DNA from: Gemella haemolysans
Lineage (GTDB): Bacteria; Bacillota; Bacilli; Staphylococcales; Gemellaceae
Length of the DNA: 64,000 bases
Direction: 5' to 3'
Assembly: GCF_012273215.1 (NCBI RefSeq)
Contig: NZ_CP050965.1
Span: forward strand, 1 to 64,000
Program-made: the position numbers and the translations under genes
Part shown: positions 3,612 to 50,509 of the stretch, one piece after another
How positions within the stretch are numbered: position 1 is the stretch's first letter
Layout of the letters: each line of letters opens with the position of its first letter
Notes under the pieces: model-generated
Told to the model about the DNA's origin: nothing
What the model saw: only the letters and a program-made list of their open reading frames with translations
Database searches by the model: none

Positions 3612-3621
3612 GAGGAACAAT

Positions 3622-3970
3622 ATGGCAAAGTTAATTATTAATGGAGTAACAATTGTTACTCCTAAATCATTTCAAGTATCTATTCAAGATATCGATGGAG
3701 AAACAGGACGAGATGCTAACGGTAATATGGTTAGAGATAGAGTCACAACTAAACGAAAATTAGAGTGTGAATGGGGTTTTTAACTCAATCTGAAATGAGT
3801 ACCTTATTAAGTAGTGTTACAAGTGAATTCTTCTCAGTTTCCTACCCTGACCCTATCATAGGTCAAACAACAAAACATTTTACGTTGGGGATAGGATTCT
3901 CCAGCTTATAGTTTTAGTGAAAAATTCAAAACCATGGAGCGGTTTAAAAATGAATTTCATAGAAAGGTAG
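3622..3970 (+). pseudogene. DUF6711-like distal tail protein, upstream copy, frameshifted
   Basis: The start follows a good AGGAGG site 11 bases after the tape measure stop. The reading frame matches the 116-residue protein at 44926-45276 but is broken by a T lost from the T run near 3778, an A lost near 3875, a G lost near 3895 and an A gained near 3930. In the intact copy the protein lies between the tape measure and tail-associated genes, the usual place of a distal tail or tail-tip component. The indel pattern suggests sequence error rather than evolutionary loss. Confidence 0.75.
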
Positions 3971-3976
3971 GTTAAT

Positions 3977-6900
3977 ATGTTTAACAACAATACAAGCTAT
4001 CAAGAAGCAATAAATGCACCCTCAAGACGAATTACTGGAAACGTAACAATAAAAGGTCAGAAATTATCTGATGATATTTCATCGATGATTATGTTAGTTC
4101 AATCTCAGGTAATACACTTACTATTGGTGCTACAAATGCTTCAACAGTAGATATTAAATTCAAGAGATTAATAGAAGGCTAGAAGAAAAAGAACTTATAA
4201 GGGTTTCATTTTCTGTTCAAACATCTAGTGGAATTGTCGAGAGACAATTGGAGAGTTCTTCTTAACTGAAATAAAACTTGATAGAAACAACAAAACAACA
4301 ACGTTAAAGGCCATTGATAAGATGGCTTTTTTAAATGATAAATACACTTCTACTTTACTTTATCCAACCTTAGGAAGGAAATAGTTCAGGAAATAGCTAA
4401 TAGCTGTAATCTGAGGGTTAATAATAATCTAATATAACAAGCTTACCTAGTTTTAGTAAAAAGTTAGAAAAGTTACTTATAGAGAAATGTTAGGTTACTT
4501 AGCACAGACAGTAGGAGCTTTGTAATTTTTAATAATAATGGTGAATTAGAGTTTAGAAAATTAAATAGAACTCAAAAACAATCTCAAAAGGTTCTTACCT
4601 TTAAAAGGTTTGGAAGTGGATGAGGTAGAATACAGAATTAACGGTATTTCTATCAGTTTAAATAACCAAGAGAAAACAATATTAGCTGTTGGAAGCCCGT
4701 TAGGTACACAGGTTAAACTTACTAACCGTTAATGACTCAAGGGTGGTTAAATTCTATCTTCTCAGAGTATTCAAGATTAAGATTTAACCCTTTAAATTAA
4801 ATTGGCGTGGTGATCCGTTTGTTGAAGTGGGTGATTGGGTTTCTATAGAAATAGCTAACGGCTCTTATCGTGCTTTTCCTATATTAGAGTTAAAACTATC
4901 TTATAGCGGTGGTTTAAAGTCTACTATAGGGCTAATGTTAAGGGGACTACAACTTCAACAACAGAATATAAAGGAACAGTTGAACGTCAAATTGAGTTTA
5001 TTAATGCTCGATTAGGTGCTTCAGGTAATTATGTTTATGCTGATACCGTTGAACCAACTAATCCGAAAGATGGTGATACATGGTTTAAGCCCAACGGAGC
5101 ATTCACAGACTTATATATTTATGAAAATAATCAGTGGGTTTTAAAGACATCAACTGGGAATATTGAGGTTTAATAACTAAAATTACAGACTCAAGTGTTT
5201 CAACTCAAAAACTTAGCTACCGCAATAGCAAAAATCATAGAACTTGACGCCGCTAGAATAACAACAGGTAGTCTTTCCTTTGAACAATTAAACAGTAGTG
5301 CTGTTAGTGAAATAAGAAAGGGTATGGTTAGTGAAACAAAATTTAATAGTTTTGTAAATGATTCTAACGGTTTAAGGCAACAAATGAGTTCTGAGATTGA
5401 AAGGGTTGTTGAAAGTAAAAAATCGACACTTAAAGGACAAGATGGAAAAAGTAGTTATATTCATAAGAAATATACTAACGATGTACTTGCAGGCCCAATG
5501 ACTGATAATAGTAATTCATTATATATAGGAATTTATACAGGTGATAAGCAGTAGCACCAACTAATATGAGTGAATATGAATGGACTAGAGTAAGAGGATA
5601 TAACGGCGTTAATAGTTACATTCATAGAAAATATAGCGACAATTCAAACGGAGCTAATATGAGTGATGACTCTAATCTAAAATATATAGGTATTTACACT
5701 GGGGCTAGTGCGACACCTCCAACAACTCCAACCTCATATACTTGGAGTAAGATAAAAGGTGAAGATGGTCGCCAAGGAGTACCGGGAGTTAGAGGTGCTG
5801 ATGGTAGAACTAGCTATTTACACACCGCATACGCTAATTCACCTACAGGAGATGTTGATTTTAGTACTACTAATAGCAACGGTAAAGAGTACATAGGAAC
5901 TTACAGTGATTTTGAACTTGCTGATAGCAATGATTACCGCCGTTATAAGTGGGTCAAAATTAAAGGTGAAAATGGTCAAAATGGTAGAGATGGTAGAGAT
6001 GGACAGGACGGTAAGTCAATTAATATAAATTGGTTGCCTAATTCTAATTTTTCTTCGGCATTTAATAAATGGGAAGATGTGTTAACTAATAGCGGTTTAA
6101 ATTCTAGTTTTGAGCATGCAAAAACGCATTTTGGAAGAGGGTTGCACATTTGGGGTACTGCTAATGCTGACTATAAAGGTCTCAAAAGTTTCCAATTTAA
6201 ATTAGAAGCTAAAAAGGGTGATAAGTTAACTTTATCAATGGACTTGGGTAAAGACGCTTTAACACAAAATGCACCGTTAAAAGTAGGTTTACAGTATTCG
6301 ATAAAAATAGCTTAGTGCCTCCTGTTAAGGAAGAGCAAATTATAGATTTAGCGACGGAGAATTTTAAAATAAAAAAATATAAACGCATTTCTCGAACGTT
6401 CACAGCTAAAACAGATATTGATGAGTGTATAGTAATGTTACATGCGCCCACTAGACAACTTATTAATTTTTATATTGACAACATAAAATTAGAAATAAGT
6501 GAAGTTGCGACAGAATGGACACCAGCATATGAAGACTTACAAGGTCACACGCTAACAGCTAATCTATGGTTTAGTGGAAATTACATCAATAATGTAACTA
6601 AAAACGTTAGATTAACCTAGTGTTATTTTATGACGGTAAAGAGGTTAATGACTTTACTACAAATGTAAGATATACAAGCGGTGTAAATAGTAGTTGGCTT
6701 ACTCAAGATAATCTTAGAACACTCAGAGATGGAACTATAGATTATGGCTTTTGGGGTGATGGTGAGAAGAATGGAGAAACCTTATCCGCAATAGCAACGG
6801 TAAATTATAAAGGTTAGAAATTGTTTCTACCGCAAGGTTAGATAACGTACCAAATGTTGAAGATGTTAAAGAAACGATTAAGAAATTCAAAACTTTTGAA

Positions 6901-8414
6901 AGTACCTTAGATAGTTTCAAATCTGTTATTGGAGAAATTAAAGGTAAAGAGATTAAAACTATAGTTAAAGCACCAAATTTATGTACTGAAGATTTTCTAA
7001 CAATAAAACTAAATCAGGTAATGATTTATACTTTAACGTTTCGCCAAACCTTAAGGCTAACACCAAGTATACTATTATATTAGATGTTTCATTTAAAAAA
7101 AATGATGTTCATCAGCGAACTAAAGTGTACGGAGCTAAAAGCGGGGGTGGTGAACAATGGTTAAAAGATGGTCGGAATGTTTGGGTGGTCGATTATGCGA
7201 CAGAACAAAACAGAGTCAACATTTATCCTTTAGGGGAATTTTCACAAGTGAATAACGTTGAAATATATGAGGGAGACTATAGAGAATTCATAGAACAAAA
7301 TAATCGTTTCACATCGTTGGGATCAGCAACTAACCAAACTAGTTTTTACTCTTATAAAATAAATCATAATATAACAGGTGCAAAAGGTAAATTTTTCTTA
7401 GTGCGATTTGACTTAGCAAGTTTACCATCTGATAAATGGTTTTCAAGTGGTGACGACGGTATTCTTGCACTTTATTCATTTGGAACTAAACAGTTTACAG
7501 AAGAGTTAAAACTAAAAGATAACGAGTATATTTTTAAAGAACTTTTTAACGATAATTTTTATATTTTCCATAATACAAATTCATTAAAAATAACCAACGT
7601 GAGACTTTACGAAGTACGTTTTGGTGTAACTCTAGCTACTCAAAACTCGTTAATAGATATTAGTAGTATGATTGACCAAACTAAAGACTCCGTTACACTT
7701 AGTGCTAGAAAAGAAATTGAAAGTAAATTAACTAATTATCCAACTAATGCATACCTTTCAAACAATTATGCTAATAAACGAGACCTTGAAAGTCTAGTTA
7801 CAAAATCAGAACTAAAAGTCTTATCAGACAGGATAGAAAGTTCTGTTAATACTGGTAATTTCGGTACTACACTTTCCCAAAATGCTTATTATGTAAGAGT
7901 TGCATGGAACGGAATTTCAAATTATGTTCAATTTGAAGATGGAGGATTGAACTTTTATGAAGGTTCTAACACACAAAATAATTTGCGTGCAAGGATAGAT
8001 GATGGAAATTATACGTTTTGGCGTGACGGATATGAATTAGGAAACATGGGAACAGGATATTACAAACTAGATCGTAATAAAAAAGGTATACAATTTCACC
8101 TTGAGTATGATGGATGGTTCATGGGTTGGGCTTATAAGCAAAAAAGGACAGATAACCATTACACTTGGAAATGGTACTATACTTCCGGTTCGGTTGGTGA
8201 TACATACGCTGATACATTAAATGCAGGTTGTAATACTAATTTTAGGTGGAATGAAATATGGTACTTTAAAACAAGGACTTCTTGGTTCAACATTATGGAT
8301 GGACTAGACGGGACTATTTCAGTTGTTTCAAACATAGAAAACACTGGAGACGGTGGAATTCGCTGGTGGACTAGAAACTTAACATTTAAAAACGGAATAC
8401 TAATTGGAGGATAA
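3977..8414 (+). pseudogene. Tail-associated lysin/receptor-binding-type protein, upstream copy, frameshifted
   Basis: This is the counterpart of the intact 1484-residue protein at 45283-49737. About twenty single-base losses between about 4085 and 7020 split it into fragments (for example open stretches 5195-5554, 5566-6315, 6315-6620 and 6620-6817). The last part, 7125-8414, is open and matches the end of the intact protein. One substitution (A for G near 4043) is also seen. The protein should form the tail tip below the tape measure, with an N-terminal Tal-like domain and C-terminal host-contacting modules. Confidence 0.8.
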
Positions 8415-8418
8415 AAGG

Positions 8419-8622
8419 ATGAATGAACCTATTGAATTAAAATTTACAAATGCAAAAAATGATATTACAAAATTTATTGAGATTACTGGAAATGAAAACG
8501 GCGTGCCTCCATTTGTAATGGTTGGGATTTTATCTCAAATTTTAACTGAGTGGCAACGACGCGAACTTATTCAGTTAACGGACGCAATAAGTAGACCAAA
8601 AGGAGAAGAAGAAAATGTTTAA
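8419..8622 (+). CDS. Small phage tail-region protein, 67 aa (upstream copy)
   Basis: Unrecognised small protein between the tail-associated protein and a coiled-coil minor structural protein. The chosen ATG lies eight bases after GGAGG; an in-frame TTG five codons upstream overlaps that ribosome site and is unlikely. The protein is short and mixed in charge, with no membrane segment. It overlaps the next gene by eight bases, so translation is probably coupled. It is identical to 49742-49945 in the other copy. A baseplate or tail-module role is inferred only from position. Confidence 0.7.
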   Translation: MNEPIELKFTNAKNDITKFIEITGNENGVPPFVMVGILSQILTEWQRRELIQLTDAISRPKGEEENV

Positions 8623-9037
8623 ACTAGCTTGGAAAAATGGATTTGAACTTGGTGTAGACAACCCAAAAACAAGGGTTCAAATTACAAATGAAGATATGTC
8701 GATTATTATCACTAAAAATTTAGATGGTGATTTATCAAAGCATTCTGATTATGATTTAGTTAATTTAGTGTTAGAGAAATTTTATCAAGATACATTCCCT
8801 AATCGTGCTGAGAATGAACGATTTAATAAAGTTGATGAAAAACTTAAAGTACTAGACACTAAATTGGCTGAAATGGATAAGATGAAAAAAGAACTTGAAA
8901 TAACACAAGGTTCTTTAATGGATTTAATAACACAAATGAGCGGAAGTTTGGAGGCTGAACACCATGAAGATAATTCACAACCTAAAAATACAAGTGAAGG
9001 AGGTGACAGTAATGATGGCAATGCTATTCGCAATTAA
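8615..9037 (+). CDS. Phage minor structural protein with coiled coil, 140 aa (DUF1366-like)
   Basis: Residues 1-65 form a mixed alpha/beta domain. Residues 70-115 are heptad-like (DEKLKVLDTKLAEMDKM), indicating a coiled coil, and the tail is polar and Ser/Asn/Asp-rich. Proteins of this size and layout occupy the same slot after the tail-associated gene in streptococcal and lactococcal siphophages and are usually annotated DUF1366 or minor structural protein. That family match is from memory of the layout, not a search. The start follows AGGAGAAGAAGAAA. Same as 49938-50360. Confidence 0.75.
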   Translation: MFKLAWKNGFELGVDNPKTRVQITNEDMSIIITKNLDGDLSKHSDYDLVNLVLEKFYQDTFPNRAENERFNKVDEKLKVLDTKLAEMDKMKKELEITQGSLMDLITQMSGSLEAEHHEDNSQPKNTSEGGDSNDGNAIRN

Positions 9038-9149
9038 TATAGCAAAAGGGAAACGTACGTTTGCACAAGTACCTAAATTCCTTAAAGATAAAGTCAGAGA
9101 ATGCTTAATCGATATGGATTTAGAACATCTAGCTAAAGAGGGGGCTTAA
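9012..9149 (+). CDS. Small CD1375-like phage protein, 45 aa
   Basis: A longer frame starts at 8964, but AAGGAGG lies eight bases before the ATG at 9012, which gives a 45-residue product. It begins with a short hydrophobic stretch and continues with AKGKRTFAQVPKFLKDKV, a pattern common in tiny proteins before phage holins (CD1375 type; recognised by eye). It overlaps the preceding gene by 26 bases, and the terminator hairpin starts within its last codons. Function unknown. Same as 50335-50472. Confidence 0.7.
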   Translation: MMAMLFAINIAKGKRTFAQVPKFLKDKVRECLIDMDLEHLAKEGA

Positions 9150-9162
9150 AGCCCTCTTTTAT
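9138..9162 (+). terminator. Rho-independent terminator after the tail module
   Basis: The hairpin GGGGGC-ttaaa-GCCCTC is followed by TTTTATTTT and overlaps the stop codon of the 45-residue gene. It separates the tail module from the holin/fibre/lysis genes. The same element is at 50461-50485. Confidence 0.7.
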
Positions 9163-9186
9163 TTTGCAAAGAAAGGAGTTTAATTA

Positions 9187-9567
9187 ATGGAAATTACATT
9201 ACCAGAGTTAGCTGAACGATATTACCATTTAACGAAAGATGTTTACATGCATGCTTTTACATTAATGATAGTGCTAGATGTGTTGACTGGTGTAGCAAAG
9301 GCTTTTGTATCAAGGACACTTAATTCAACTATTAATAGAAGAGGTTTAATTCAACATATAACTGTATGGGTTATGTGTATTACTGTATATCCTTATGTAT
9401 TATATTTAGGTTTTAATGAGGCAGGGACAGCATTTTTACTATTCTTCACACTGAGTTATTGCTTATCGCTAATAGAAAATCTAAGTGTTTTAGGTGTGCC
9501 GTTTCCAACTGGTATTAAGAAACGATTAGAAAAGTTAAGAGACGAACTTGACGGAAAGAAGGAATAA
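9187..9567 (+). CDS. Phage holin, toxin-secretion/phage lysis family, 126 aa
   Basis: Holins make timed lesions in the cytoplasmic membrane that let the endolysin reach the wall. This protein has hydrophobic segments around residues 20-40, 58-75 and 78-95, a central GVAKAFVSR stretch with the Asp-Val-Leu-Thr-Gly entry motif, and a Lys/Arg/Glu-rich C-terminus (GIKKRLEKLRDELDG). This is the layout of the Bacillota holin family with PF05105-like topology. AAGGAG lies nine bases before the ATG. A fibre gene, not the endolysin, follows. Same as 50510-50890. Confidence 0.85.
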   Translation: MEITLPELAERYYHLTKDVYMHAFTLMIVLDVLTGVAKAFVSRTLNSTINRRGLIQHITVWVMCITVYPYVLYLGFNEAGTAFLLFFTLSYCLSLIENLSVLGVPFPTGIKKRLEKLRDELDGKKE

Positions 9568-9570
9568 TAG

Positions 9571-12500
9571 ATGAAAAAATTAATTAAATTAGATTTTAAC
9601 AACACTACAAGGGAACGTAAGACTGAGGATAGCTATTCAGAACTTTATTCTTATGACAAAAATAACGGATCATTTGAGTTTGAGATATTAAACGACACAC
9701 TTACGACTGAAAAAGTTATAGCTTTGTTTAAATTTACAGAAAGTAATAAAGTATGGAAGACTACTGGAACGGTAGAAGGAAATAAAGTACATGTGACTTT
9801 TGATACTACTTTAATTACTCAAAATGAAACGGTAATTTGTTACTTATATTTCGATGAAGAACAAAGAACATCTGACACATTCAGATTTAAGTTTAAAGTA
9901 AAAGTATCTGAAATTCATAAAATGAGTCGATATGAAGTTAAAGAAAGATTTATCAACAACACAGTTATTGTCGATAGATTAGACGTTGTGACAAAAGAAG
10001 AACTAAAAGAAGCGTTAAAAAATGTTGGTGGAATAGCAACAGAAGGACTATTAACAGAGGTTAAGGCTGAAGAATTGTATGCTAAAAAGTCAGAAGCAGT
10101 AGATAATACTAATTTTGAGTTAGTTAAGAACAGATTACTAGCGTTAGAACTTAAGACTGATAAGGATACGGTATATGACGATAGCGAAGTTAAAGAAAGA
10201 CTTACAACGCTTGAGAATAAACCTCCTGTAGACCTATCTGGATACGCCACTAAAGAAGAACTAAGAAATGTTAGTGGTGGTCAACCATTAGCTGACAACC
10301 TTGTGACTAAAGAGGAGCTAGAGAACAAACATTACATTTCTGATATAAGCAATTTGGCTACTAAAGAGGAGTTGCAAGAGGTTAGGAACAGTCAACCAAC
10401 AGTTGACACTTCAAACCTTGTTACTAGGGATGAATTAACAGCTAAGAATTTCTTAACAGAACATCAATCACTGGATAATCTAGTTACTAAGCAAGAATTA
10501 GAAGAGAAACAATATCTAACGGCACATCAAGATTTATCAGAGTACGCTAAGAAGTCAGAATTATACAACGATACACCGCTTAAAGAACGTGTCACGGCAC
10601 TTGAGAGCAAAGCTATCGAGGGTGGAGCATATGACGATAGCGATTTAAGAAATCGTGTTGTAACGTTGGAAAGCAAAGAAGATAAAGATACTAAATATGA
10701 TGATACAGAAGTAAAACACAGACTTACAGAACTTGAGAATAAGCCTGCGGTTGATACTTCTGTTTTTGTTACTGAAGAAAAGTTAAATAGTAAAGGATAT
10801 CTTACTCAACATCAATCTTTAGAAAATGTAGTAACTAAGGAAGAGTTAGAAAGCAAAGGTTATTTAACTTTACATCAAGATATTAGTAATTTAGCAACAA
10901 AAGAAGAGTTAGCTAATACGGTGACTAAGGAAGAATTAAACAATAAACATTATGTGACTGAAGAAGAATTAAATAACAAAGCATATCTAACTTCACATCA
11001 AGATTTATCAAACTATGCCTTAAAATCAGAAATACCGCAACCATACAACGACAGTACACTAAATGAACGTGTTACAGCGTTAGAAAGTAAAGCAATTGAG
11101 GGCGGTGCATATGATGACTCAGATTTAAGAAATAGAGTAGTAGCTCTAGAAGGTAAGGAAGATAAGGACACTAAATATGATGACACAGATTTAAGAAATC
11201 GTGTTACTAATTTAGAGAATAAACCACCTATAGATACTTCAGAATTTGTGACTAAAGATGAACTAACTAACAAAGGATATCTTACAACACATCAAAGTTT
11301 AGATCACGTGGTAACTAAAGATGAATTAGCTAGTAAGAATTACATCTCAGATATCTCAAATTTAGTTACTAAAGATGAACTAGCAAGCAAGAACTACTTA
11401 ACTGAACATCAACCATTAACAGAAGTTAATAATAGATTAGATGTGTTGGAAGCTAAGCAAGACAAAGATACAGTTTATAATGACAGTGAGTTAAGACAGC
11501 GTGTAACTAATCTTGAAAATAAATCTAATGTGGACTTAACAAACTATGTTACTAGTGAACAATTAGAGAATAAGCACTATTTAACTCAACATCAATCATT
11601 AGAAGAGTACGCTAAGAAGTCAGAATTATACAATGATACTGATATTAAACAACGTTTAACAACGTTAGAGAGTAAACCTAACATTGACACATCAAACTTT
11701 ATCACTAATGAACAGTTAGAAGCTAAGCATTACTTAACGGAACATCAAACCTTAACACACCTTGCAACAACTAGCGATTTAGAAGCATTGAGAAATGTTG
11801 CCGTTAGTAAGTCAGAGTTAAGTAAAAAAGTTGATGCGACTGAGTATAATTCTTTCAAAGATAGTGTTGTTACAAAAACTGAACTTACTGAGAAAGGATA
11901 TTTAACAGAACATCAGAATTTAGATGGATATGCTAAAAAGTCAGAATTAGAAACTTTAAATCAAACATTGTCTCTTACAAATGGAGTGTTAAGCATTAGT
12001 GGTGGGAATAGCGTTGCACTACCTGCTAGTCAATATGAAATCCACGGAACTGGAATGCCGAACGGTGTAGTAGAAGCTGAAATTGGTACAACGTATATTG
12101 ACAAAAACAAAACTAACGGAGCATTCAAATGGATTAAGACTACTAACGGCGGAAATCAGGGGTGGGAAGTGTTAACTGGAGATACTGGTTGGCGAACACT
12201 TAACTCAACTTCAAAATTAACTGTTGAGGGTAGAACTTCAACGATTAAAATAAGACGTGTTAACAACTTAGTGACTTACAATTTTGGAGGGCTTCAATGG
12301 GGCTGGTTTGGAATAGTCAGACGTGGTGGAGCAGGATACGTAGAACATAAAAGTAGTGGTGAAAGAGGAACTAAAGTATTACCTGTCGACGGAATACCTT
12401 CAGGCTTCAGAAGTGAAGCGTCATTAGTTGGTGGTACGTACGACGATAAAGGAAGACCTTACGGTGTTTGGTATTTAGGTGGAGTAAATGACTCAAATTA

Positions 12501-12612
12501 CATTCAATTCACATTTAACGACCCTATTCCAACAGATAGAGATATTAGAGATATAAGAGTGAGTGCAGTATCTTATTTAACATCCGAACCATGGCCTACA
12601 CAATTACCATAA
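9571..12612 (+). CDS. Tail fibre/baseplate upper protein (BppU N-terminal domain), 1013 aa
   Basis: The first 115 or so residues look like the BppU N-terminal beta domain that anchors fibres to the baseplate. From about residue 135 to 800 there are many short repeats of the form VTKEEL...YLT.HQ.L, alternating with ERVTALESK-type coiled-coil pieces, giving a long trimeric shaft. The last 200 residues are Gly/Trp/Tyr-rich and beta-like, a likely receptor-binding head. It sits between two holin genes, an unusual place for a fibre. Identical to 50894-53935. Confidence 0.8.
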   Translation: MKKLIKLDFNNTTRERKTEDSYSELYSYDKNNGSFEFEILNDTLTTEKVIALFKFTESNKVWKTTGTVEGNKVHVTFDTTLITQNETVICYLYFDEEQRTSDTFRFKFKVKVSEIHKMSRYEVKERFINNTVIVDRLDVVTKEELKEALKNVGGIATEGLLTEVKAEELYAKKSEAVDNTNFELVKNRLLALELKTDKDTVYDDSEVKERLTTLENKPPVDLSGYATKEELRNVSGGQPLADNLVTKEELENKHYISDISNLATKEELQEVRNSQPTVDTSNLVTRDELTAKNFLTEHQSLDNLVTKQELEEKQYLTAHQDLSEYAKKSELYNDTPLKERVTALESKAIEGGAYDDSDLRNRVVTLESKEDKDTKYDDTEVKHRLTELENKPAVDTSVFVTEEKLNSKGYLTQHQSLENVVTKEELESKGYLTLHQDISNLATKEELANTVTKEELNNKHYVTEEELNNKAYLTSHQDLSNYALKSEIPQPYNDSTLNERVTALESKAIEGGAYDDSDLRNRVVALEGKEDKDTKYDDTDLRNRVTNLENKPPIDTSEFVTKDELTNKGYLTTHQSLDHVVTKDELASKNYISDISNLVTKDELASKNYLTEHQPLTEVNNRLDVLEAKQDKDTVYNDSELRQRVTNLENKSNVDLTNYVTSEQLENKHYLTQHQSLEEYAKKSELYNDTDIKQRLTTLESKPNIDTSNFITNEQLEAKHYLTEHQTLTHLATTSDLEALRNVAVSKSELSKKVDATEYNSFKDSVVTKTELTEKGYLTEHQNLDGYAKKSELETLNQTLSLTNGVLSISGGNSVALPASQYEIHGTGMPNGVVEAEIGTTYIDKNKTNGAFKWIKTTNGGNQGWEVLTGDTGWRTLNSTSKLTVEGRTSTIKIRRVNNLVTYNFGGLQWGWFGIVRRGGAGYVEHKSSGERGTKVLPVDGIPSGFRSEASLVGGTYDDKGRPYGVWYLGGVNDSNYIQFTFNDPIPTDRDIRDIRVSAVSYLTSEPWPTQLP

Positions 12613-12626
12613 AGGAGGACAAAACA

Positions 12627-12872
12627 ATGGAACAATTACAACCTATTTTATTAACACTTATCGTGTTCGGACTTAACCTATTAGGTAAGTTTTTAAAAGA
12701 GTGGAAACCGTTTCCGACAGAACTTATCCCTCAAGTATTAGGAGTACTTGGGGGGCTTATAGGTTGGGCGGTATTTAAAGATACTAACGCAGTACTTTTA
12801 GGACTTGCAAGTGTAGGAACACATCAAGTGGTTAAGCAAAGTAGAAATAATAACAATACGGAGGATAAATAA
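12627..12872 (+). CDS. Phage holin, A118-like family, 81 aa
   Basis: A short protein with two membrane segments (residues about 5-20 and 36-60, the latter LGVLGGLIGWAVF) and an Asn/Lys-rich charged tail, typical of the small holins next to amidase endolysins. The ATG follows AAAGGAGG by eight bases; an upstream in-frame start at 12591 would overlap the fibre gene and lacks a site. It ends one base before the endolysin start. This copy keeps the full frame because its G run at 12740-12745 has six bases; the other copy has five and is frameshifted. Confidence 0.8.
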   Translation: MEQLQPILLTLIVFGLNLLGKFLKEWKPFPTELIPQVLGVLGGLIGWAVFKDTNAVLLGLASVGTHQVVKQSRNNNNTEDK

Positions 12873-12873
12873 C

Positions 12874-13677
12874 ATGACAGAAATTTATAGCGATTATTTT
12901 CAAAACGGAGTATTTTTTACTCCACCTAAAAACGATATACTAGGAATAGTAATACATAATGATGGGGGTTCGCTATCAGCTAGACAATATGACGGATTCT
13001 TAGTCGATAGAGTGAACAATGGAACTCTTGACAGAGGGTTCGCAGCGTACTATGTAGATAGAAACGACGTGTATGTATTCCAACCATCTAACCATCAAGA
13101 GTGGCACACGGCTAACCCTTACGGAAATGGTAATTTTATCGGGTTTGAAGTTTGTCAATCAATGTCAGCAAGTGATAGTGAATTTATAGCTAATGAAGAT
13201 GCTACACTATTACTAGCAGGTCAAGTACTTCAAAGCTATGGCTTACCTATCAACGAAGACACAGTTAAATTACACCACGAATTTAGTGCGACTTCTTGCC
13301 CTCATAGAAGTATGGAATTACACGGAAATGGTGGAGCTTACAACGGAGCAGGAACTGAAGCGTGTAGACAATATTTCATCAATCGAATTAAGCAATTATT
13401 AGCTGGAGACGTAACTGAACCACCAGTTGTAGAGAAAAGCATTTTAGATGAAGACGTAGAACTAGCTAAGCGTGATGAACCTTATTACGAAGCAACAGTA
13501 AGCATTGATTATGTGTTAGAAAGCCAACCAACAGAAGATAGTGAGGATAAAGAATTTGTCCCAGCTGGAACTAGAGTACGTGTGTACGAGAAAAAAGGCG
13601 GTTGGAGTAGAGTAAATTACAAGGATAGCGATCAATGGATTGAAGATAAGTACTTAACAGAAGTTACAGTATTTTAA
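12874..13677 (+). CDS. Endolysin: N-acetylmuramoyl-L-alanine amidase with SH3-like wall-binding domain, 267 aa
   Basis: The N-terminal 175 residues fit the Amidase_2/PGRP fold. Zinc-ligand-type histidines are seen in IVIHND and LHHEFSATSCPHR, with EWHTAN and GFEV between them. These enzymes cut the bond between muramic acid and the stem peptide. After a linker (residues 180-195) the C-terminus carries an SH3-type domain (residues 200-267, with GGWSRVNY and DQWIEDKYL) for wall binding. There is no signal peptide, so export depends on the holin. Same protein as 54196-54999. Confidence 0.9.
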   Translation: MTEIYSDYFQNGVFFTPPKNDILGIVIHNDGGSLSARQYDGFLVDRVNNGTLDRGFAAYYVDRNDVYVFQPSNHQEWHTANPYGNGNFIGFEVCQSMSASDSEFIANEDATLLLAGQVLQSYGLPINEDTVKLHHEFSATSCPHRSMELHGNGGAYNGAGTEACRQYFINRIKQLLAGDVTEPPVVEKSILDEDVELAKRDEPYYEATVSIDYVLESQPTEDSEDKEFVPAGTRVRVYEKKGGWSRVNYKDSDQWIEDKYLTEVTVF

Positions 13678-13684
13678 TGATTTT

Positions 13685-13716
13685 AGCCCTTACTTAAAAG
13701 TAGGGGCTTATTTTTT
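13685..13716 (+). terminator. Terminator after the lysis genes
   Basis: The stem AGCCCTTAC-ttaaaa-GTAGGGGCT (one G-T pair) is followed by TTATTTTTTAT. It ends the late transcript and insulates the promoter of the downstream peptide/HTH cassette. Same element at 55007-55038. Confidence 0.85.
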
Positions 13717-13748
13717 ATGTATTTTTTAAAAAAAGTTTTAAATATCTC

Positions 13749-13777
13749 TTGACTTTATACCTTATATAAGGTATAAT
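13749..13777 (+). promoter_or_regulatory. Promoter with perfect 22-bp palindromic operator
   Basis: TTGACT (13749-13754), a 17-base spacer and TATAAT (13772-13777). The spacer and most of the -10 box are a perfect palindrome at 13755-13776, each half reading TTATACCTTAT from its outer end. A bound dimer would cover the promoter. The HTH gene at 14082 is the obvious candidate regulator, but this is inference. The same promoter lies at 55071-55099. Confidence 0.8.
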
Positions 13778-13801
13778 TAATAATGTAAAGGAGGTGAGGT
13801 A

Positions 13802-13927
13802 GTGAGTAACAGAAGAAATAAAAAAACAGACTCTCACAAAGACAAGATGTTGGTACTAGCAACAGTGTTAGCTATCCTCGAAATAGTAAACACAATTCTT
13901 GAAATCTTTGTAAAAGTCTGTAAATAG
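13802..13927 (+). CDS. Hydrophobic 41-aa peptide, holin-like toxin type
   Basis: The GTG start follows AAAGGAGGTGAGGTA. The product has a basic N-terminus (SNRRNKK, then SHKDK), one hydrophobic segment at residues 16-38 (MLVLATVLAILEIVNTILEI) and ends KVCK. Single-span peptides of this kind in Bacillota prophages are often annotated as holin-like or type I toxins. No antisense RNA is obvious, and the assignment rests on size and layout only. The operator-bearing promoter and adjacent HTH gene suggest controlled expression from the prophage. Same as 55124-55249. Confidence 0.6.
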   Translation: MSNRRNKKTDSHKDKMLVLATVLAILEIVNTILEIFVKVCK

Positions 13928-13931
13928 ACCC

Positions 13932-13968
13932 TTAGGGAACGGAGCTTATAAAAGCTCCTAGTACCTAA
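13932..13968 (+). other. Two-tier hairpin after the 41-aa peptide gene
   Basis: Inner stem GGAGCTT-ataa-AAGCTCC (13941-13958) inside outer stem TTAGG/CCTAA. No T run follows, so it is not a standard terminator. It may stabilise or separate the peptide mRNA from the next gene. Same structure downstream at 55254-55290. Confidence 0.55.
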
Positions 13969-13987
13969 ATGTTATTCACATTATATC

Positions 13988-14070
13988 ATGAAAAAGAAAA
14001 AATACAAACTATGATTATAATATTAGGTATATTTGCCGTGATAATTTCAATTATCTTAAAACTTATTTAG
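13988..14070 (+). pseudogene. 27-aa membrane peptide gene, frameshifted in this copy
   Basis: The A run after the ATG has five bases here and six in the other copy (55310-55393). The copy there encodes a complete 27-residue peptide with one membrane span; here the frame stops after eight codons. Either copy could carry the base-call error. If real, the upstream prophage lacks this peptide. Confidence 0.5.
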
Positions 14071-14081
14071 GAGGTTTTACA

Positions 14082-14558
14082 ATGATAGATCAAGCGATTA
14101 AACAAATAGAAGAATTATTCAACAGTGATTTAACTGATTATAGAATTTCAAAAGATACAGGATTGACACTAAGTGTTATTCAAAATTACCGCAGTGGTAA
14201 GTACGAGTTAGAAAATATGAGTTTTAAAGTAGCAAAAAAATTAATCAGATATGCGGAGGAATTAAAAATGAGAAATTATGATAAAATGATGGTAGTGGTA
14301 AATGAATTAGTATTAGAAGATGGAGCAACAGTGACTTACTGGACTGAGGATAAACCTAATGATTGTACATGTTGCTATTCAGTAGAAGAGCTAAAAGCAC
14401 ATTTAGGAAATATGGAAGAAGATGACTATGAGAAATTAATATTCCAGGTTGATAATGGTGATGATTGTGACAAATCATATCAATTCTACATGAGTGAATA
14501 CAAAGCAGTTTTAGATCGTGACGAAATTACACTATCTTTCTTACACAACACTAGATAA
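14082..14558 (+). CDS. HTH-domain protein with acidic C-terminal domain, 158 aa
   Basis: Residues 1-60 contain a helix-turn-helix (DYRISKDTGLTLSVIQNYRSG, then KVAKKLIRYAEEL). Residues 65-158 form a separate acidic domain with a Cys-Thr-Cys-Cys cluster near residue 105 and many Asp/Glu. AGGAGG lies eight bases upstream of the ATG. It is the last gene of the unit before the ncRNA and attachment site, where phages often keep lysogeny-expressed cargo. It is a candidate regulator of the palindromic promoter at 13749. The C-terminal domain is not recognised. Same as 55405-55881. Confidence 0.75.
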   Translation: MIDQAIKQIEELFNSDLTDYRISKDTGLTLSVIQNYRSGKYELENMSFKVAKKLIRYAEELKMRNYDKMMVVVNELVLEDGATVTYWTEDKPNDCTCCYSVEELKAHLGNMEEDDYEKLIFQVDNGDDCDKSYQFYMSEYKAVLDRDEITLSFLHNTR

Positions 14559-14563
14559 ATTTT

Positions 14564-14590
14564 AAGCCCCAAAATAAGGGGCTTTTTTTA
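14564..14590 (+). terminator. Terminator after the HTH gene
   Basis: Perfect stem AAGCCCC-aaaataa-GGGGCTT followed by TTTTT. Separates the cassette from the downstream ncRNA promoter. Copy at 55887-55913. Confidence 0.9.
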
Positions 14591-14610
14591 AAAAAAATTT
14601 CAGTCAAACT

Positions 14611-14639
14611 TTGATTATCGGAAAATCGTATGTTAAAAT
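14611..14639 (+). promoter_or_regulatory. Promoter of the right-end ncRNA
   Basis: TTGATT, a 17-base spacer, then TAAAAT with TG one base upstream (extended -10). No open reading frame follows before the terminator at 14807. Copy at 55934-55962. Confidence 0.75.
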
Positions 14640-14645
14640 ATAGTC

Positions 14646-14833
14646 AGTTGGTATTACAACCTAAACTTTCTTTTAATACTAAAGTTTTTCAAGACGGGAC
14701 GCTATTTCTCCTTGTAATATTTATTTGGTTAATGCGATGTATCATAGTAACAAAATAGCGTCCGCAGTCGGTTTTCCTTCCATAAAACAAAATAGCAAAC
14801 ATTTTTCAACCTCCTAATGGGGGTTGTTTTTTT
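14646..14833 (+). ncRNA. Structured phage ncRNA, about 190 nt, at the right end
   Basis: The start is estimated seven bases after the -10 box. Visible structure: hairpin GTTG/CAAC (14647-14660); AAACTTT/AAAGTTT (14663-14687); an 11-bp perfect stem GGACGCTATTT/AAATAGCGTCC (14697-14707 with 14753-14763), extended by GAC/GTC; and a terminator CAACCTCC-taat-GGGGGTTG followed by seven T. The 45-nt loop carries CTCCTT, complementary to ribosome sites. A second AAATAGC at 14790-14796 could compete for GCTATTT, allowing two folds. It contains no plausible coding frame with a ribosome site. Not a family I recognise. Copy at 55969-56156. Confidence 0.7.
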
Positions 14834-14884
14834 ATGGGGAAAAAAAGGGGAAAAAGCTTCTGAATACTTGTTTTTTTCTTTTAA

Positions 14885-14991
14885 ACCTCAAATATACACA
14901 GGTGCTTTTTAAAACACCTGAAATATGCTATAATATACTGATAAATATACATTTTATACTTGAAATATATTTTTTTACACCTCAAATTTAG
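14885..14991 (+). repeat. Four direct repeats, probable integrase arm-type sites
   Basis: Four 13-bp repeats of the form AC(C/T)T(C/G)AAAT(A/T)T start at 14885, 14916, 14958 and 14979. The spacings are 31, 42 and 21 bases, close to three, four and two helical turns, so all face the same side of the helix. They lie just inside the attachment core, as arm sites of tyrosine integrases do. Repeated at 56208-56314. Confidence 0.7.
14926..14934 (+). promoter_or_regulatory. Extended -10 promoter pointing out of the phage right end
   Basis: TGCTATAAT with only a weak T-rich -35, placed among the arm repeats after the hairpin CAGGTG/CACCTG (14900-14920). Here it points at the integrase terminator. 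In the other copy (56249-56257) it points at the host HD-domain gene. Confidence 0.55.
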
Positions 14992-15016
14992 AGAAACATC
15001 TATATGAGAGAAATAT
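14992..15016. other. Phage-phage attachment junction (attP-type)
   Basis: The two copies are the same up to 15016 (ending GAGAGAAATAT) and then differ: the integrase end follows here, while chromosomal DNA follows at 56340. This marks the right end of one unit joined to the left end of the next. The left limit of the core cannot be set because attL is not in the window. Confidence 0.75.
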
Positions 15017-15020
15017 TATA

Positions 15021-15071
15021 AAAGACACGTACTGGAATTGATTAAATCAACTCTAGCGTGTGTCTTTTTTT
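15021..15071. terminator. Bidirectional terminator between attachment site and integrase
   Basis: Outer stem AAAGACAC (15021-15028) with GTGTCTTT (15060-15067), and an inner TTGATT/AATCAA palindrome. T runs lie on both sides in the respective directions. It can end integrase mRNA from the right and outward phage transcripts from the left. Confidence 0.75.
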
Positions 15072-15072: not shown

Positions 15073-16098
15073 TTAGTAGGGAATAAATGGGGAAAGGTTG
15101 TTAAGGTTATTTCTTAAGTTGACTTTCATGTTCTCGGTAACGTGAGTGTAGATTGACAATGTTGTTTTAATATCAGAATGTCCTAATCTTTGAGATATTA
15201 CTTTGATAGGTACATTTTGTTCTATCAACAAAGCCACATGAGTATGTCTGAAAATATGTGTGTGAATATTTAAAATTTTTAAATGATTTAATATAGTTAC
15301 GTAGGTAATTTTAAAAATGAATTTATTTGAAGATATATAATCTAGCAATAATTTAGCTATAAAATCGGATATTTCTATAGTTCTAATACTCGATAAAGTT
15401 TTAGGTGAACCAAGTTCTCCATTTACTAATTTTGTTTTGCTAACAGAAATAGTTTTATTTTTAAAATCAACATCATCTGGAGTAAGTGCTAACACTTCCC
15501 CTATTCTAAGTCCTGTATGCAATTGTAAAATAGCGATACTTCTAACCGTGTTATTTTTTATTTTTTTCAAAATAACTGGTATTTCATCTTTCTCCAAATA
15601 TTTAACTTTTTGCAATTCCAATGCCTTCTCTTCTTTAGTAAACTTGAAATCAAGTTTTACATTGAAATTCGACACATAGTATTTTTTTATAAATTGGAAA
15701 AAGTTATTTAATACCATGCAGGTTAATTTAATAGCGTTAGGGGAATAGTCCTTCCTCATATCCATTAACATTTTATCGTATTTAATTTTAGTAACATCTT
15801 CTAATCTTTCATTATCATCTACTACTTTTATTCTTGTTTCATAGGCTAAATAAGAATTATAAGCTAAAGTTGGCTTTTTAAACTCTAAATATTTTTCTTT
15901 ATAATATCCTAAATTGTGAGCCTCTTGAACTGGATTAAGTATCTTATTGATCCTATCTTGTAATTCCTCAAATGCTTCCTTTTCAGTAGCACGAGTCTTA
16001 TTATTCTTAACGACAGAAACACGCTTGTTTTTACCATCTCTATCCTTGAATGATTGAACAAATCTATATTTGCCATTATGTGTGATTTCTCTGTACAT
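15073..16098 (-). CDS. int: Tyrosine-recombinase phage integrase, 341 aa
   Basis: Catalyses site-specific recombination between attP and the chromosome. The N-terminus (residues 1-55) is an AP2-like arm-binding domain (REITHNGKYRFVQSFKDRDG), followed by a SAM-like core-binding domain (about 65-160) and the catalytic domain. Active-site signatures are HTGLRIGEVLAL (Arg), HIFRHTH (His-x-x-Arg) and LGHSDIKTTLSIYTHV (His and the Tyr nucleophile). An in-frame start 25 codons upstream is rejected: AGAAAGGATGTG precedes the ATG at 16098. It is transcribed away from the immunity region and lies beside the attachment site. Confidence 0.93.
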   Translation of the reverse strand: MYREITHNGKYRFVQSFKDRDGKNKRVSVVKNNKTRATEKEAFEELQDRINKILNPVQEAHNLGYYKEKYLEFKKPTLAYNSYLAYETRIKVVDDNERLEDVTKIKYDKMLMDMRKDYSPNAIKLTCMVLNNFFQFIKKYYVSNFNVKLDFKFTKEEKALELQKVKYLEKDEIPVILKKIKNNTVRSIAILQLHTGLRIGEVLALTPDDVDFKNKTISVSKTKLVNGELGSPKTLSSIRTIEISDFIAKLLLDYISSNKFIFKITYVTILNHLKILNIHTHIFRHTHVALLIEQNVPIKVISQRLGHSDIKTTLSIYTHVTENMKVNLRNNLNNLSPFIPY

Positions 16099-16129
16099 AA
16101 ATACACATCCTTTCTTGTTAAATGTAGAT

Positions 16130-16173
16130 GTGTATGATATACTATTAGTGTAGTTTATGTGTATACCATACAC
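16130..16173. promoter_or_regulatory. Inverted repeats upstream of the integrase, operator candidate
   Basis: A perfect palindrome GTGTAT-acc-ATACAC at 16159-16173 and a degenerate relative GTGTATgATATAC at 16130-16142 lie within 75 bases of the integrase start. They probably control integrase transcription. No strong sigma-A promoter is visible here. Confidence 0.45.
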
Positions 16174-16182
16174 ATTTATTCT

Positions 16183-16238
16183 GAGATATTGCCGTATCTC
16201 ATTTTATCCTTTACTCTTGCCGGAGTAGAGGATTTTTA
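16183..16238 (+). terminator. Tandem hairpins sharing a TTGCCG loop; second has a T run
   Basis: GAGATA-ttgccg-TATCTC (16183-16200) is followed by ATCCTttACTC-ttgccg-GAGTagAGGAT (16206-16233) and TTTTATTTTG. Both loops are TTGCCG. The second looks like a rightward terminator, although no rightward gene precedes it. Confidence 0.5.
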
Positions 16239-16247
16239 TTTTGTTTA

Positions 16248-16269: not shown

Positions 16270-16293
16270 AAAATAGTAAATTAGTTTAAAGTA

Positions 16294-16437
16294 TGTTATA
16301 ATAATTTTATAGAGGCTTCGTGTATTATTTACACGATTATTTAAAAGATATGTTAAATATCACCTTTCTAAAATCGATTTTAAAAGGTAAGGAGTTCTAT
16401 CCTTTAGTAGGTGCTTAATTGTGCCTACTTTTTTTGT
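16294..16437 (+). ncRNA. Left-end RNA unit 4 (rightward, about 130 nt) with promoter and terminator
   Basis: The extended -10 TGTTATAAT at 16294-16302 places the RNA start near 16309. Hairpins: CGTGTA/TACACG (about 16319-16335), ACCTTT...AAAGGT around a palindromic AAAATCGATTTT (16361-16388), and the terminator AGTAGGTGC/GTGCCTACT followed by seven T (16406-16436). The only frame inside (22 codons from 16350) lacks a ribosome site. It faces unit 3 tail to tail. Confidence 0.6.
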
Positions 16438-16445
16438 TAATCATA

Positions 16446-16531
16446 TAAATAAAAAAGTACTTTAAGAATTTTCACTCAAAGTACTAAAAAATCTAGATTA
16501 TTTTACCTGCCGGTTCACGCCGACAATACGT
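16446..16531 (-). ncRNA. Left-end RNA unit 3 (leftward, about 80 nt)
   Basis: Starts near 16531 from the promoter at 16538-16566. A 5' hairpin TGTCGG-cgtgaa-CCGGCA is followed by an A/T-rich linker and the terminator AGTACTTT/AAAGTACT with a T run. No credible coding frame. Confidence 0.6.
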
Positions 16532-16537
16532 ATAATA

Positions 16538-16566
16538 ATTATAGCATTTTAAACTTTTAAGTGCAA
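16538..16566 (-). promoter_or_regulatory. Promoter of RNA unit 3
   Basis: On the minus strand: TTGCAC, 17-base spacer, TATAAT, with TG giving an extended -10 (TGCTATAAT). Confidence 0.75.
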
Positions 16567-16579
16567 TATTTTTTATTTA

Positions 16580-16644
16580 AAAGAAAAAGAAGCCTTTATC
16601 CAATGATAAAAGACTTCTTCACGGTGGGCACAGCCCTCTAATCT
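16580..16644 (-). ncRNA. Left-end RNA unit 2 (leftward, about 62 nt)
   Basis: Starts near 16644. A short 5' hairpin GGGC-tgt-GCCC is followed by ACCGTGAAG and a long terminator stem whose minus-strand arms read GAAGtCTTTTATC and GATAAAgGCTTC, with loop ATTG and then TTTTTC. No credible gene product. Confidence 0.6.
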
Positions 16645-16650
16645 AATATC

Positions 16651-16679
16651 ATTATATCATATATTTAATTTTAAGTCTA
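16651..16679 (-). promoter_or_regulatory. Promoter of RNA unit 2
   Basis: On the minus strand: TAGACT, 17-base spacer, TATAAT. The palindrome at 16696-16717 lies 17 bases upstream of its -35 box. Confidence 0.7.
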
Positions 16680-16695
16680 ATTTAATATTATTCTT

Positions 16696-16717
16696 ACCGT
16701 GTCGAATTCGATACGGT
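16696..16717. promoter_or_regulatory. 22-bp near-perfect palindrome between RNA units 1 and 2
   Basis: Outer arms ACCGT/ACGGT around TCGAATTCGA, with one mismatched pair. Placed just upstream of the unit 2 promoter. It resembles the palindrome at 16248-16269 in length and centre, so one regulator may bind both. Confidence 0.5.
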
Positions 16718-16721
16718 TAAA

Positions 16722-16831
16722 AAAGAAAAAAAGGTATCTATGGAAAACCATAAATACCTTAGCAGAGCCGGTTAAAAACCTCTCTGAAAAATGTTACCAG
16801 TAGAGCCTATATTTTCATATACCTCTAAGAT
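16722..16831 (-). ncRNA. Left-end RNA unit 1 (leftward, about 105 nt) beside the PemK-like gene
   Basis: Starts near 16831 from a full-consensus promoter inside the 3' end of the PemK-like gene. It contains a nested hairpin (AGAG.GGTT-ttt-AACC.GCTCT) and ends in the terminator AAGGTATtTATGG/CCATAgATACCTT followed by seven T (16731-16760). The only start near a ribosome site reads ATG AAA ATA TAG, a three-codon frame. The terminator must also end the cI operon mRNA. Confidence 0.65.
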
Positions 16832-16837
16832 ACTTTT

Positions 16838-16866
16838 ATTATATTATAAATGTTATGGTTTGTCAA
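16838..16866 (-). promoter_or_regulatory. Full-consensus promoter of RNA unit 1
   Basis: On the minus strand: TTGACA (16861-16866), exactly 17 bases, TATAAT (16838-16843). The -35 box lies within the last codons of the PemK-like gene. An exact match to sigma-A consensus suggests strong constitutive transcription in the lysogen. Confidence 0.85.
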
Positions 16867-17644
16867 TTTTATAGGTTGTTAAATTTTTTATAAGTTCAGT
16901 TTCTAATATTTTTAAAATTCTATCTGATAATGTTATTTTTCCTATAGGATCTAAAGGATTAATAGGTTTAAAAATTCTAAATTTACTAATAGTTGTTATT
17001 GCCTGTACGTTAGCATATGTATTTTTATTATATTTAAGATAAAACTCTGCTATTTCTTTTGAATAATCTTCGTCTTTTTTTATTAATAACTTAGCTTCAT
17101 TAATTCTTAAATTACCAGTTTTATTGTGTCGTTTCGCTAAATCATTGATTAAAAGTTGAACGTCCATATTTTTCGGATAATACACTCCAGGCTTTTTTGT
17201 TAATGGATTAGCTTGAAAATCCAAAATAGCTGTTAAAAGTCTATTCCTTTCTTGAATATCTTTTACTGTTTGGTCAAAAAACTTATAAATCATGTTCTTA
17301 TCAAGATTTATAAAATCTTTCTTTTCTTTAGAGGTAAAAGGTATTACGGTTAGCGTCCCCTTTTTAGGATTATCTTTGTTGTCCATAACTACACAAAAAT
17401 GAGGATGTGAAAATTCATTCCCTATTCCTGTTCCAAAATCAACAAAGATTATAGAGCCTTTTTTATATCGTTTGAAGTGTTTTGTGTGGTTATTATTGTC
17501 ATTTCTTAATTGTTTGGCTCTAAATATTTCAGAAGATGCTAATTTTTTAAATTTTTTATTTCTTGGATTATTTGCAACACTAATCAAAATATCTCTAGCT
17601 CTACTTAGTTTTTTCTTATTATTTACATTTTCATTAGATTCCAT
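16853..17644 (-). CDS. PemK/MazF-like protein with N- and C-terminal extensions, 263 aa
   Basis: Residues 60-115 look like the start of a PemK/MazF fold (KKGSIIFVDFGTG, GNEFSHPHFCVVMDN, TLTVIPFTS). Known members are mRNA-cutting toxins. The usual size is about 110-130 residues; here a Lys/Asn-rich 55-residue N-terminal extension and about 130 extra C-terminal residues are present. AAAGGAG lies ten bases before the ATG. The gene is 17 bases downstream of cI on the same strand, so it is expressed with the repressor in lysogens. No protein antitoxin adjoins it. An RNA promoter lies in its 3' end. A superinfection or abortive-infection role is inferred. Confidence 0.65.
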   Translation of the reverse strand: MESNENVNNKKKLSRARDILISVANNPRNKKFKKLASSEIFRAKQLRNDNNNHTKHFKRYKKGSIIFVDFGTGIGNEFSHPHFCVVMDNKDNPKKGTLTVIPFTSKEKKDFINLDKNMIYKFFDQTVKDIQERNRLLTAILDFQANPLTKKPGVYYPKNMDVQLLINDLAKRHNKTGNLRINEAKLLIKKDEDYSKEIAEFYLKYNKNTYANVQAITTISKFRIFKPINPLDPIGKITLSDRILKILETELIKNLTTYKIDKP

Positions 17645-17661: not shown

Positions 17662-18336
17662 CTAAAATTTCCTTCTTAACTCAACAACTCTTCCAATAAT
17701 GACTACTGGTTTTGTAAGTACTTCTTCGTTTGAAAAGTACATAGGTGAGTATTCTGAATTGTTAGATATTAGCATTATTCCATTACCAAGCTTTTCAAAT
17801 TTCTTACATGTTGCATCGTCTCCATTTACTAGAGCAATTACCACATCTCCATTGTTAGCTGTTGATTGTTGTCTGACTATAACTGTATCTCCATCGTTTA
17901 TATCTGGTTTCATACTGTCACCTTTGATTCTAAGTCCAAAGAATTCTCCTTGATTTTCCCACGATTGAGGTACTTCCTCATAGTCCAGTATATCCTCAAC
18001 AGCTGATATAGGGATACCTGCTGCGACTGTTCCTAATACTGGGATTTTTAAGCCTTGAAGGGTTTGAGGTTCATTAATTTTAGCTTCTTCTATTCTTTCG
18101 TATCTATGTACATCGTATCCTAATAACCACGCTTCTGTAACACCAAATACTTTTGATAATAGGAAGATTTTTTCGTTATCTGGATTTGATTTGCCATTTA
18201 CATATTGAGATAAGTGGCTTTTAGAAAATTTTATATTATATTTCTCTTGAAATGGTTTAGCTAAATTAAGAACGTCTATTTGTCTTAATCTTTTTTCTTT
18301 CATTATTTGATTTATTCTTTCAGTAGAAGTTGCCAT
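17662..18336 (-). CDS. CI-like phage repressor with S24/LexA autocleavage domain, 224 aa
   Basis: Maintains lysogeny by binding the operators beside its gene. Residues 1-70 are an XRE-type HTH (RQIDVLNLAKPF, KSHLSQYVNGKS). The C-terminal half is a LexA/S24 peptidase: cleavage site VAAGIP, catalytic Ser in GDSMKP and the Lys in TCKKFEK, so SOS-induced self-cleavage is expected. A GTG three codons upstream overlaps the AGGAGG site; the ATG at 18336 with eight-base spacing is chosen. It shares an operon with the PemK-like gene. Confidence 0.93.
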   Translation of the reverse strand: MATSTERINQIMKEKRLRQIDVLNLAKPFQEKYNIKFSKSHLSQYVNGKSNPDNEKIFLLSKVFGVTEAWLLGYDVHRYERIEEAKINEPQTLQGLKIPVLGTVAAGIPISAVEDILDYEEVPQSWENQGEFFGLRIKGDSMKPDINDGDTVIVRQQSTANNGDVVIALVNGDDATCKKFEKLGNGIMLISNNSEYSPMYFSNEEVLTKPVVIIGRVVELRRKF

Positions 18337-18359
18337 AACTTTCACCTCCTGTTAGAACT

Positions 18360-44915: not shown

Positions 44916-44925
44916 GAGGAACAAT

Positions 44926-45276: not shown

Positions 45277-45282
45277 GTTAAT

Positions 45283-49737: not shown

Positions 49738-49741
49738 AAGG

Positions 49742-49945
49742 ATGAATGAACCTATTGAATTAAAATTTACAAATGCAAAAAATGATATTACAAAATTTAT
49801 TGAGATTACTGGAAATGAAAACGGCGTGCCTCCATTTGTAATGGTTGGGATTTTATCTCAAATTTTAACTGAGTGGCAACGACGCGAACTTATTCAGTTA
49901 ACGGACGCAATAAGTAGACCAAAAGGAGAAGAAGAAAATGTTTAA
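49742..49945 (+). CDS. Small phage tail-region protein, 67 aa
   Basis: Same protein as 8419-8622. ATG eight bases after GGAGG, four bases after the tail-associated gene. No motif recognised; coupled to the next gene by overlap. Baseplate association is inferred from position. Confidence 0.7.
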   Translation: MNEPIELKFTNAKNDITKFIEITGNENGVPPFVMVGILSQILTEWQRRELIQLTDAISRPKGEEENV

Positions 49946-50485: not shown

Positions 50486-50509
50486 TTTGCAAAGAAAGGA
50501 GTTTAATTA

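Follow-up and report, generated by a model that had tools for sequence, protein, structure and literature searches.

A cluster of promoter–RNA–terminator units beside a PemK-like gene in a Gemella haemolysans prophage: a probable RNA-controlled toxin–antitoxin module with putative orphan antitoxin RNAs

Genomic setting of the RNA cluster

The window analysed here is a stretch of 64 000 nucleotides of Gemella haemolysans (contig NZ_CP050965.1, positions 1–64 000), from a genome of 2.08 Mb that was compared with a set of 15 genomes of the same family. The RNA cluster lies between a tyrosine integrase gene and a gene for a PemK-like protein, in a prophage of about 41.3 kb. The prophage is apparently present as tandem copies, judging from the nucleotide sequence. 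Positions 1–15023 of the window correspond to positions 41296–56346 at 99.7 per cent identity, and a second, identical copy of the RNA cluster is found near the contig end (G000:C1:2071608).

A sequence-only reading of this DNA had proposed four independent promoter–RNA–terminator units at 16290–16866. All four are found at these positions, and units 1–3 have the promoters described for them, each with a spacer of 17 nt (table 1). The four units are real, but independence does not extend to unit 1, whose start lies within the PemK-like gene, at its 3′ end.

Table 1. Genes and promoter–RNA–terminator units of the RNA cluster and its surroundings (positions in the window).
Feature	Position	Strand	Promoter	RNA and terminator	Remarks
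Tyrosine integrase gene	15073..16173	-			start probably about 16100
Unit 5	16115..16243	+	present	two hairpins	just outside the reported four-unit cluster
Unit 4	16290..16437	+	extended -10, TGTTATAAT at 16294-16302	several hairpins; terminator stem 16406-16429	
Unit 3	16450..16566	-	TTGCAC 16566-16561 (weak -35), 17 nt, TG-extended TATAAT 16543-16538	one hairpin; terminator stem 16485-16456	
Unit 2	16582..16679	-	TAGACT 16679-16674, 17 nt, TG-extended TATAAT 16656-16651	hairpin GGGCUGUGCCC; terminator ending about 16587	putative orphan RNA; homologues directly upstream of Abi_2 (AbiD/F) genes
Unit 1	16723..16866	-	16866-16838: TTGACA 16866-16861, 17 nt, TATAAT 16843-16838 (12/12 consensus)	RNA about 16831-16723, two hairpin pseudo-repeats; terminator stem 16760-16731	promoter within 3′ end of PemK-like gene
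PemK/MazF-fold toxin gene (putative)	16853..17644	-			263 aa; directly after S24 CI repressor gene
CI-type S24 repressor gene	17662..18345	-			17 nt upstream of toxin gene

Terminators are strongly enriched, with five in 2.1 kb against 0.5 ± 0.7 in shuffled sequences. A strict scan for promoter plus terminator finds three units, against a shuffle mean of 0.125 and with four or more in none of 200 shuffles; it misses unit 2 because of a bulge in the terminator of that unit. Promoter-like matches by themselves show no enrichment in DNA this rich in AT (15 versus 12.3 ± 4.0 in shuffles). The RNAs of units 1–4 are more stable than shuffled sequence, with z-scores of −4.3, −2.9, −2.7 and −4.5, respectively. 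Rfam matches on the units (mir, snoR, PyrR and L20) are weak and were taken as chance.

Fold and family of the PemK-like protein

The protein matches Pfam family PF02452 (E = 9e-8) and PHROG 1412 (E = 1.5e-55), and PemK_toxin is the sole Pfam family above the cut-off in seven proteins. NCBIfam has no curated family for it. The AlphaFold (AF2) structure, with a pLDDT of 87, models as a MazF fold: it superimposes on Bacillus subtilis MazF (4mdx_A) with a Z-score of 12.7 and 2.2 Å over 110 residues spanning positions 57–258. To the MazF core are added an N-terminal two-helix hairpin (residues 4–51) and a helical insertion of about 90 residues (117–203). Two motifs can be aligned with MazF: KRG..GSE.SG.HF and, at the C-terminus, TISK.RI. 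An invariant His stands at the position of the catalytic Arg of MazF; because of this replacement, nuclease activity of the PemK-like protein is an assumption in what follows. Among the best 50 Foldseek matches, the only type III toxin is CptN (4rmo_A), and the fold match is weak (E = 0.065).

PHROG 1412 is labelled 'antitoxin mazE-like'. This label seems inverted, since the family member modelled here has a MazF fold and is likely a toxin. No small antitoxin gene accompanies the toxin gene in the window, where its neighbour is the S24 CI repressor gene.

An RNA unit follows PemK-like genes in related elements

The sequence-only reading had suggested looking for co-occurrence of the units with the PemK-like gene. 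This co-occurrence is clear for unit 1. Under fixed criteria, a promoter and a terminator are present at 24 of 28 distinct 3′ flanks of PemK-like genes and behind one of 91 control genes, defined as genes of the same loci with at least 100 nt of intergenic DNA behind them (Fisher p = 6e-20). The strict scan fails at the remaining four flanks; three of them (L079, L087 and L120) show the unit by eye, and L113 shows none. The relatives were drawn from prophages and satellite islands of the Gemella family, Staphylococcus and Streptococcus. Typically, a sigma-A promoter at the toxin stop codon is followed by an RNA of 80–110 nt with two (one to three) hairpin repeats and by a terminator.

Single-query protein scans gave no match for PemK in the genome contigs and none for AbiF in the viral contigs. 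A protein search of the family revealed six further full-length PemK-like genes. At all six, a consensus promoter overlaps the stop codon or adjoins it and is followed by an RNA with two hairpin repeats and by a terminator. A search of the viral contigs with an alignment as query gave 58 PemK-like relatives, and their 3′ flanks show the same promoter–RNA–terminator pattern. So do intact PemK copies in staphylococcal genomes, some of which overlap with the first set, and, by inspection, named phages of S. aureus, S. suis and S. pneumoniae as well as satellite islands. The closest PemK genes, L054 and L055, have homologues of unit 1 itself immediately on their 3′ side. One tandem arrangement, PemK–RNA–PemK–RNA (G132:C126:4530-5944), provides each PemK gene with its own RNA unit. 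The gene upstream of the toxin varies among relatives (CI, lipoprotein, integrase or small HTH protein) and the RNA at the stop codon is retained. The toxin and its 3′ RNA appear to form a family that is widespread in phages and genomic islands of Staphylococcus and Streptococcus and so far unrecognised. The sequence-only reading knew of no phage module with this layout; this stands for the four-unit cluster, but the core of toxin plus RNA is common in lysogeny regions.

Other RNAs are found beside some of these units. In L070 an Rfam skipping-rope RNA (RF02924; 4911–4981) comes directly after the PemK-associated RNA, and in streptococcal phages the Rfam Spy779816 sRNA is convergent to it (L064 4922–5006, L081 4793–4879 and L201 2326–2412, minus strand).

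Repeats and divergence of the unit 1-type RNAs

The two repeats of unit 1 are degenerate in the window and perfect in relatives. The RNAs of L088 and L089 carry perfect 31-nt repeats, and that of S. aureus phage SA13 has repeats of about 38 nt whose stems (GCCGC/GCGGC versus GTCGC/GCGAC) differ by compensatory changes. In the four repeats compared, 20 of 20 cells pair, with two-sided changes at three of the five pairs; coming from four sequences, this covariation would alone be modest evidence. The outer-stem pairs of eight hand-aligned repeats of the unit 1 family are kept in 40 of 40 cases, again with two-sided changes at three of five positions.

RNA and toxin diverge together. The RNA regions are alike in 23 of 24 toxin pairs with at least 45 per cent identity, in 11 of 56 pairs with 35–45 per cent and in 17 of 700 pairs below 35 per cent; at least some of these 17 are alike through common last repeats and terminators.

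The Rfam model sau-63 (RF02394) matches neither the window nor the family, despite the same position and layout. It matches the L089-type RNA at 51.7 bits, under the curated cut-off of 100. Its genomic matches lie directly 3′ of a PemK-like gene in three of three cases above the cut-off and in five of nine weaker ones. Sau-63 was detected by Northern blotting as an RNA of about 100 nt from SaPIn2 (PMC3053349); at least one relative is therefore a real, stable transcript.

At two loci (L087 and L105) the toxin genes are broken by different lesions and the RNA has one repeat, where intact relatives have two. AntiQ clones with 0.8 repeat are inviable alongside intact AbiQ, at least 1.8 repeats being needed (PMC5086642); a single repeat beside a broken toxin is therefore what a toxin–antitoxin link predicts. 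Such cases are few, and the two may have a common ancestor. There is no RNA beside L260, a heavily broken toxin copy, or L265, a short fragment; at L258, L270 and L274 the toxin is broken and the RNA is still present.

Unit 1 and the PemK-like gene as a toxin–antitoxin module

With the gene linkage, architecture, covariation, co-divergence and MazF fold of the model obtained here, unit 1 and the PemK-like gene very probably constitute an RNA-controlled toxin–antitoxin module that is type III-like with reversed gene order. The explanation as a whole, in which unit 2 is added as an orphan AbiF-type antitoxin and units 3 and 4 as similar RNA genes, we consider likely. The toxicity of the protein, its binding by RNA and the trigger of the pair are elements that we infer. 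A MazF-fold endoribonuclease would be made from the CI–toxin transcript of the lysogen. Unit 1 has a strong promoter of its own in the toxin gene's 3′ end, from which an excess of its RNA would be made; the hairpin repeats of this RNA would bind the toxin directly and keep it inactive, and the terminator of unit 1 would also end the mRNA of the toxin. Once superinfection or induction stops transcription, or the prophage is lost, the RNA would run out and the toxin be freed.

The pair resembles the type III systems ToxIN/AbiQ, CptIN and TenpIN (PMC5086642) in the MazF/Kid-type fold of the toxin, in a short RNA whose structured repeats stand in tandem before an intrinsic terminator, and in the co-divergence of RNA and toxin with variable repeat number. 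Type III antitoxin RNAs neutralise their toxins by binding them directly and are processed by them into repeats. According to the review, the order promoter–RNA–terminator–toxin is common to every type III locus (PMC5086642), whereas in unit 1 and its relatives the RNA is downstream of the toxin with its own promoter. The protein, moreover, belongs to Pfam PemK and not to the ToxN/AbiQ, CptN or TenpN families, it carries additional helices in a hairpin and a long insertion, and its RNA usually has only two repeats. Because gene order and sequence families differ, the pair is not a member of a described type III family. A counterpart in context is Sau-63 (RF02394; SaPIn2; PMC3053349), a staphylococcal RNA of what would be the same kind of module, directly 3′ of a PemK-like gene; it is unlike unit 1 in sequence, and the papers found give it no function. 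Searches of the open-licence literature gave no earlier description of a MazF/PemK toxin paired with an RNA antitoxin.

The toxin fold is shared with MazEF/PemIK, and a MazF fold is typical of type II toxins. A type II system, in which the PemK-like toxin is held by CI or some other protein antitoxin and the RNAs are unrelated sRNAs, would also agree with the close spacing of the CI and toxin genes. We nevertheless regard it as very unlikely: no protein antitoxin is seen, the toxin of the window has no small antitoxin gene with it, and among relatives the RNA at the stop codon is retained beside differing upstream genes. The His at the catalytic Arg position and the helical extensions also distinguish the protein from MazEF/PemIK toxins. 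The other proposals of the sequence-only reading, trans-acting sRNAs or immunity regulators of the lysogen, the latter considered here as P4-CI-like RNAs, would fit strong promoters of their own and a location between repressor and integrase. They seem even less probable, since RNAs of the unit 1 type track the toxin and are present where no repressor lies upstream of it (e.g. L056 and L084).

Antisense pairing of the RNA with the toxin mRNA, as in type I systems, has the least to commend it. The RNA of the window forms a slightly favourable duplex with the start of its toxin mRNA (z = −2.4), but duplex z-scores across 28 loci centre near 0, and in view of this lack of systematic complementarity to the mRNA start antisense action was rejected. 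The RNA is also encoded on the toxin's own strand, and its covarying stems suit recognition of structure. An RNA-controlled module of the type III-like kind remains our preferred reading for unit 1.

Should it be correct, a gene common in temperate phages and genomic islands of Staphylococcus and Streptococcus, which currently goes under the label 'PemK/MazF family toxin' or 'antitoxin mazE-like' (PHROG 1412), would be the toxin of an RNA-controlled system. Earlier surveys, requiring the RNA upstream, would have missed the order toxin-then-RNA. Sau-63, an sRNA listed without a function since at least 2011, would acquire one, and a counter-defence role of orphan antitoxin RNAs in phages would become directly testable.

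Unit 2 and AbiF-type systems

Homologues of unit 2 are found directly upstream of Abi_2 genes (Pfam PF07751; PADLOC AbiD) in two loci (L009 and L021; genomes G011 and G003), where a promoter, a short structured RNA and a terminator precede the Abi_2 gene. In these relatives AAAGGAGG, the ribosome site for Abi_2, lies within the terminator. The same layout is known for AbiF/Abi_2 and its upstream RNA antitoxin RCd22 (RF03085), established experimentally in C. difficile (PMC12373285). As its relatives precede Abi_2 genes and an RNA antitoxin of AbiF is known, unit 2 is best read as an RNA antitoxin from an AbiF-type (HEPN) system whose toxin is absent here; on the synteny of two loci we hold this to be somewhat favoured. 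The suggestion of the sequence-only reading that the units could be antitoxin RNAs thus gains strong support for unit 1 from co-occurrence and support for unit 2 from synteny; for units 3 and 4 it has the architecture alone.

Unlike AbiF/RCd22, unit 2 adjoins no Abi_2/abiF gene in the window, and its own genome contains only weak, broken Abi_2 remnants. The Rfam abiF model (RF03085) does not match unit 2, which says little, as the other tested Abi_2 loci escape this model too. The core pattern of unit 2 has no match in the viral contigs. An orphan relative in L056 is 91 per cent identical to unit 2, and both have a longer terminator without the Abi_2 ribosome site; the orphan form is therefore older than one recent loss.

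At L215/L233 a sau-63-like RNA is found near Abi_2. That one RNA might serve both PemK and AbiF was rejected, since a promoter–RNA–terminator unit belonging to Abi_2 intervenes and makes the sau-63-like RNA a mere neighbouring orphan. In L009 (1048–1485) and L021 (1583–1960), genes of 125–145 aa without a Pfam match above the cut-off lie upstream of the AbiF RNA, and the unit 2-like promoter begins right after their stop codons.

Units 3 and 4 and the origin of orphan units

Units 3 and 4 would be further RNA genes of similar architecture. They have no homologues in the 15 family genomes beyond short chance matches and no relatives by profile search of the retrieved loci. The sequence AACCGGC, pointed out earlier as common to units 1 and 3, is not a signal of homology; searches with a profile for each unit gave no relative of unit 3 in any of the retrieved loci. 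The core pattern of unit 3 has 55 matches in viral contigs, none in an AT-rich context, and these were taken as chance.

Units 2–4 could be non-functional relics, left where recombination at the toxin–integrase junction swapped toxin modules; we give this nearly an even chance. Such leftover RNA genes are indicated by L062, where a partly broken version of the L056 toxin's RNA follows the locus's own RNA, and by the chimeric RNA of L072/L073, whose final repeat and terminator are of the L088 type. An orphan unit 1-like RNA also stands by itself in locus L003 (G000:C1:655504-655640), 74 per cent identical to unit 1, with promoter and terminator and no adjoining toxin gene. Against decay, units 2, 3 and 4 retain intact promoters, folds and terminators, and the terminator lacking the Abi_2 ribosome site that unit 2 shares with the L056 orphan does not point to one recent loss. 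The intact units and this shared derived terminator allow for selection.

A phage-borne antitoxin RNA without a toxin has a precedent in the pseudo-ToxI of phage PhiTE, which acts as a counter-defence (PMC3475682). PhiTE is a myovirus in which escape mutants expanded the repeats, whereas here intact orphan units are found in a prophage. By analogy, the cluster might be an array of antidotes, with the antitoxin of its own toxin and expressed RNAs against toxins that it does not carry (AbiF-type HEPN for unit 2, perhaps others for units 3 and 4), resisting toxin-based defences or addiction modules of co-resident elements. We consider this rather unlikely.

Unit 5 is conserved in four family genomes, where it precedes integrases of both the tyrosine and the serine type, and its fold is more stable than shuffled sequence (z = −6.6). 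Both of its hairpins, the second of which is terminator-like, have the same UUGCCG loop; in L006 and L007 both loops are UUGCAG, a concerted change.
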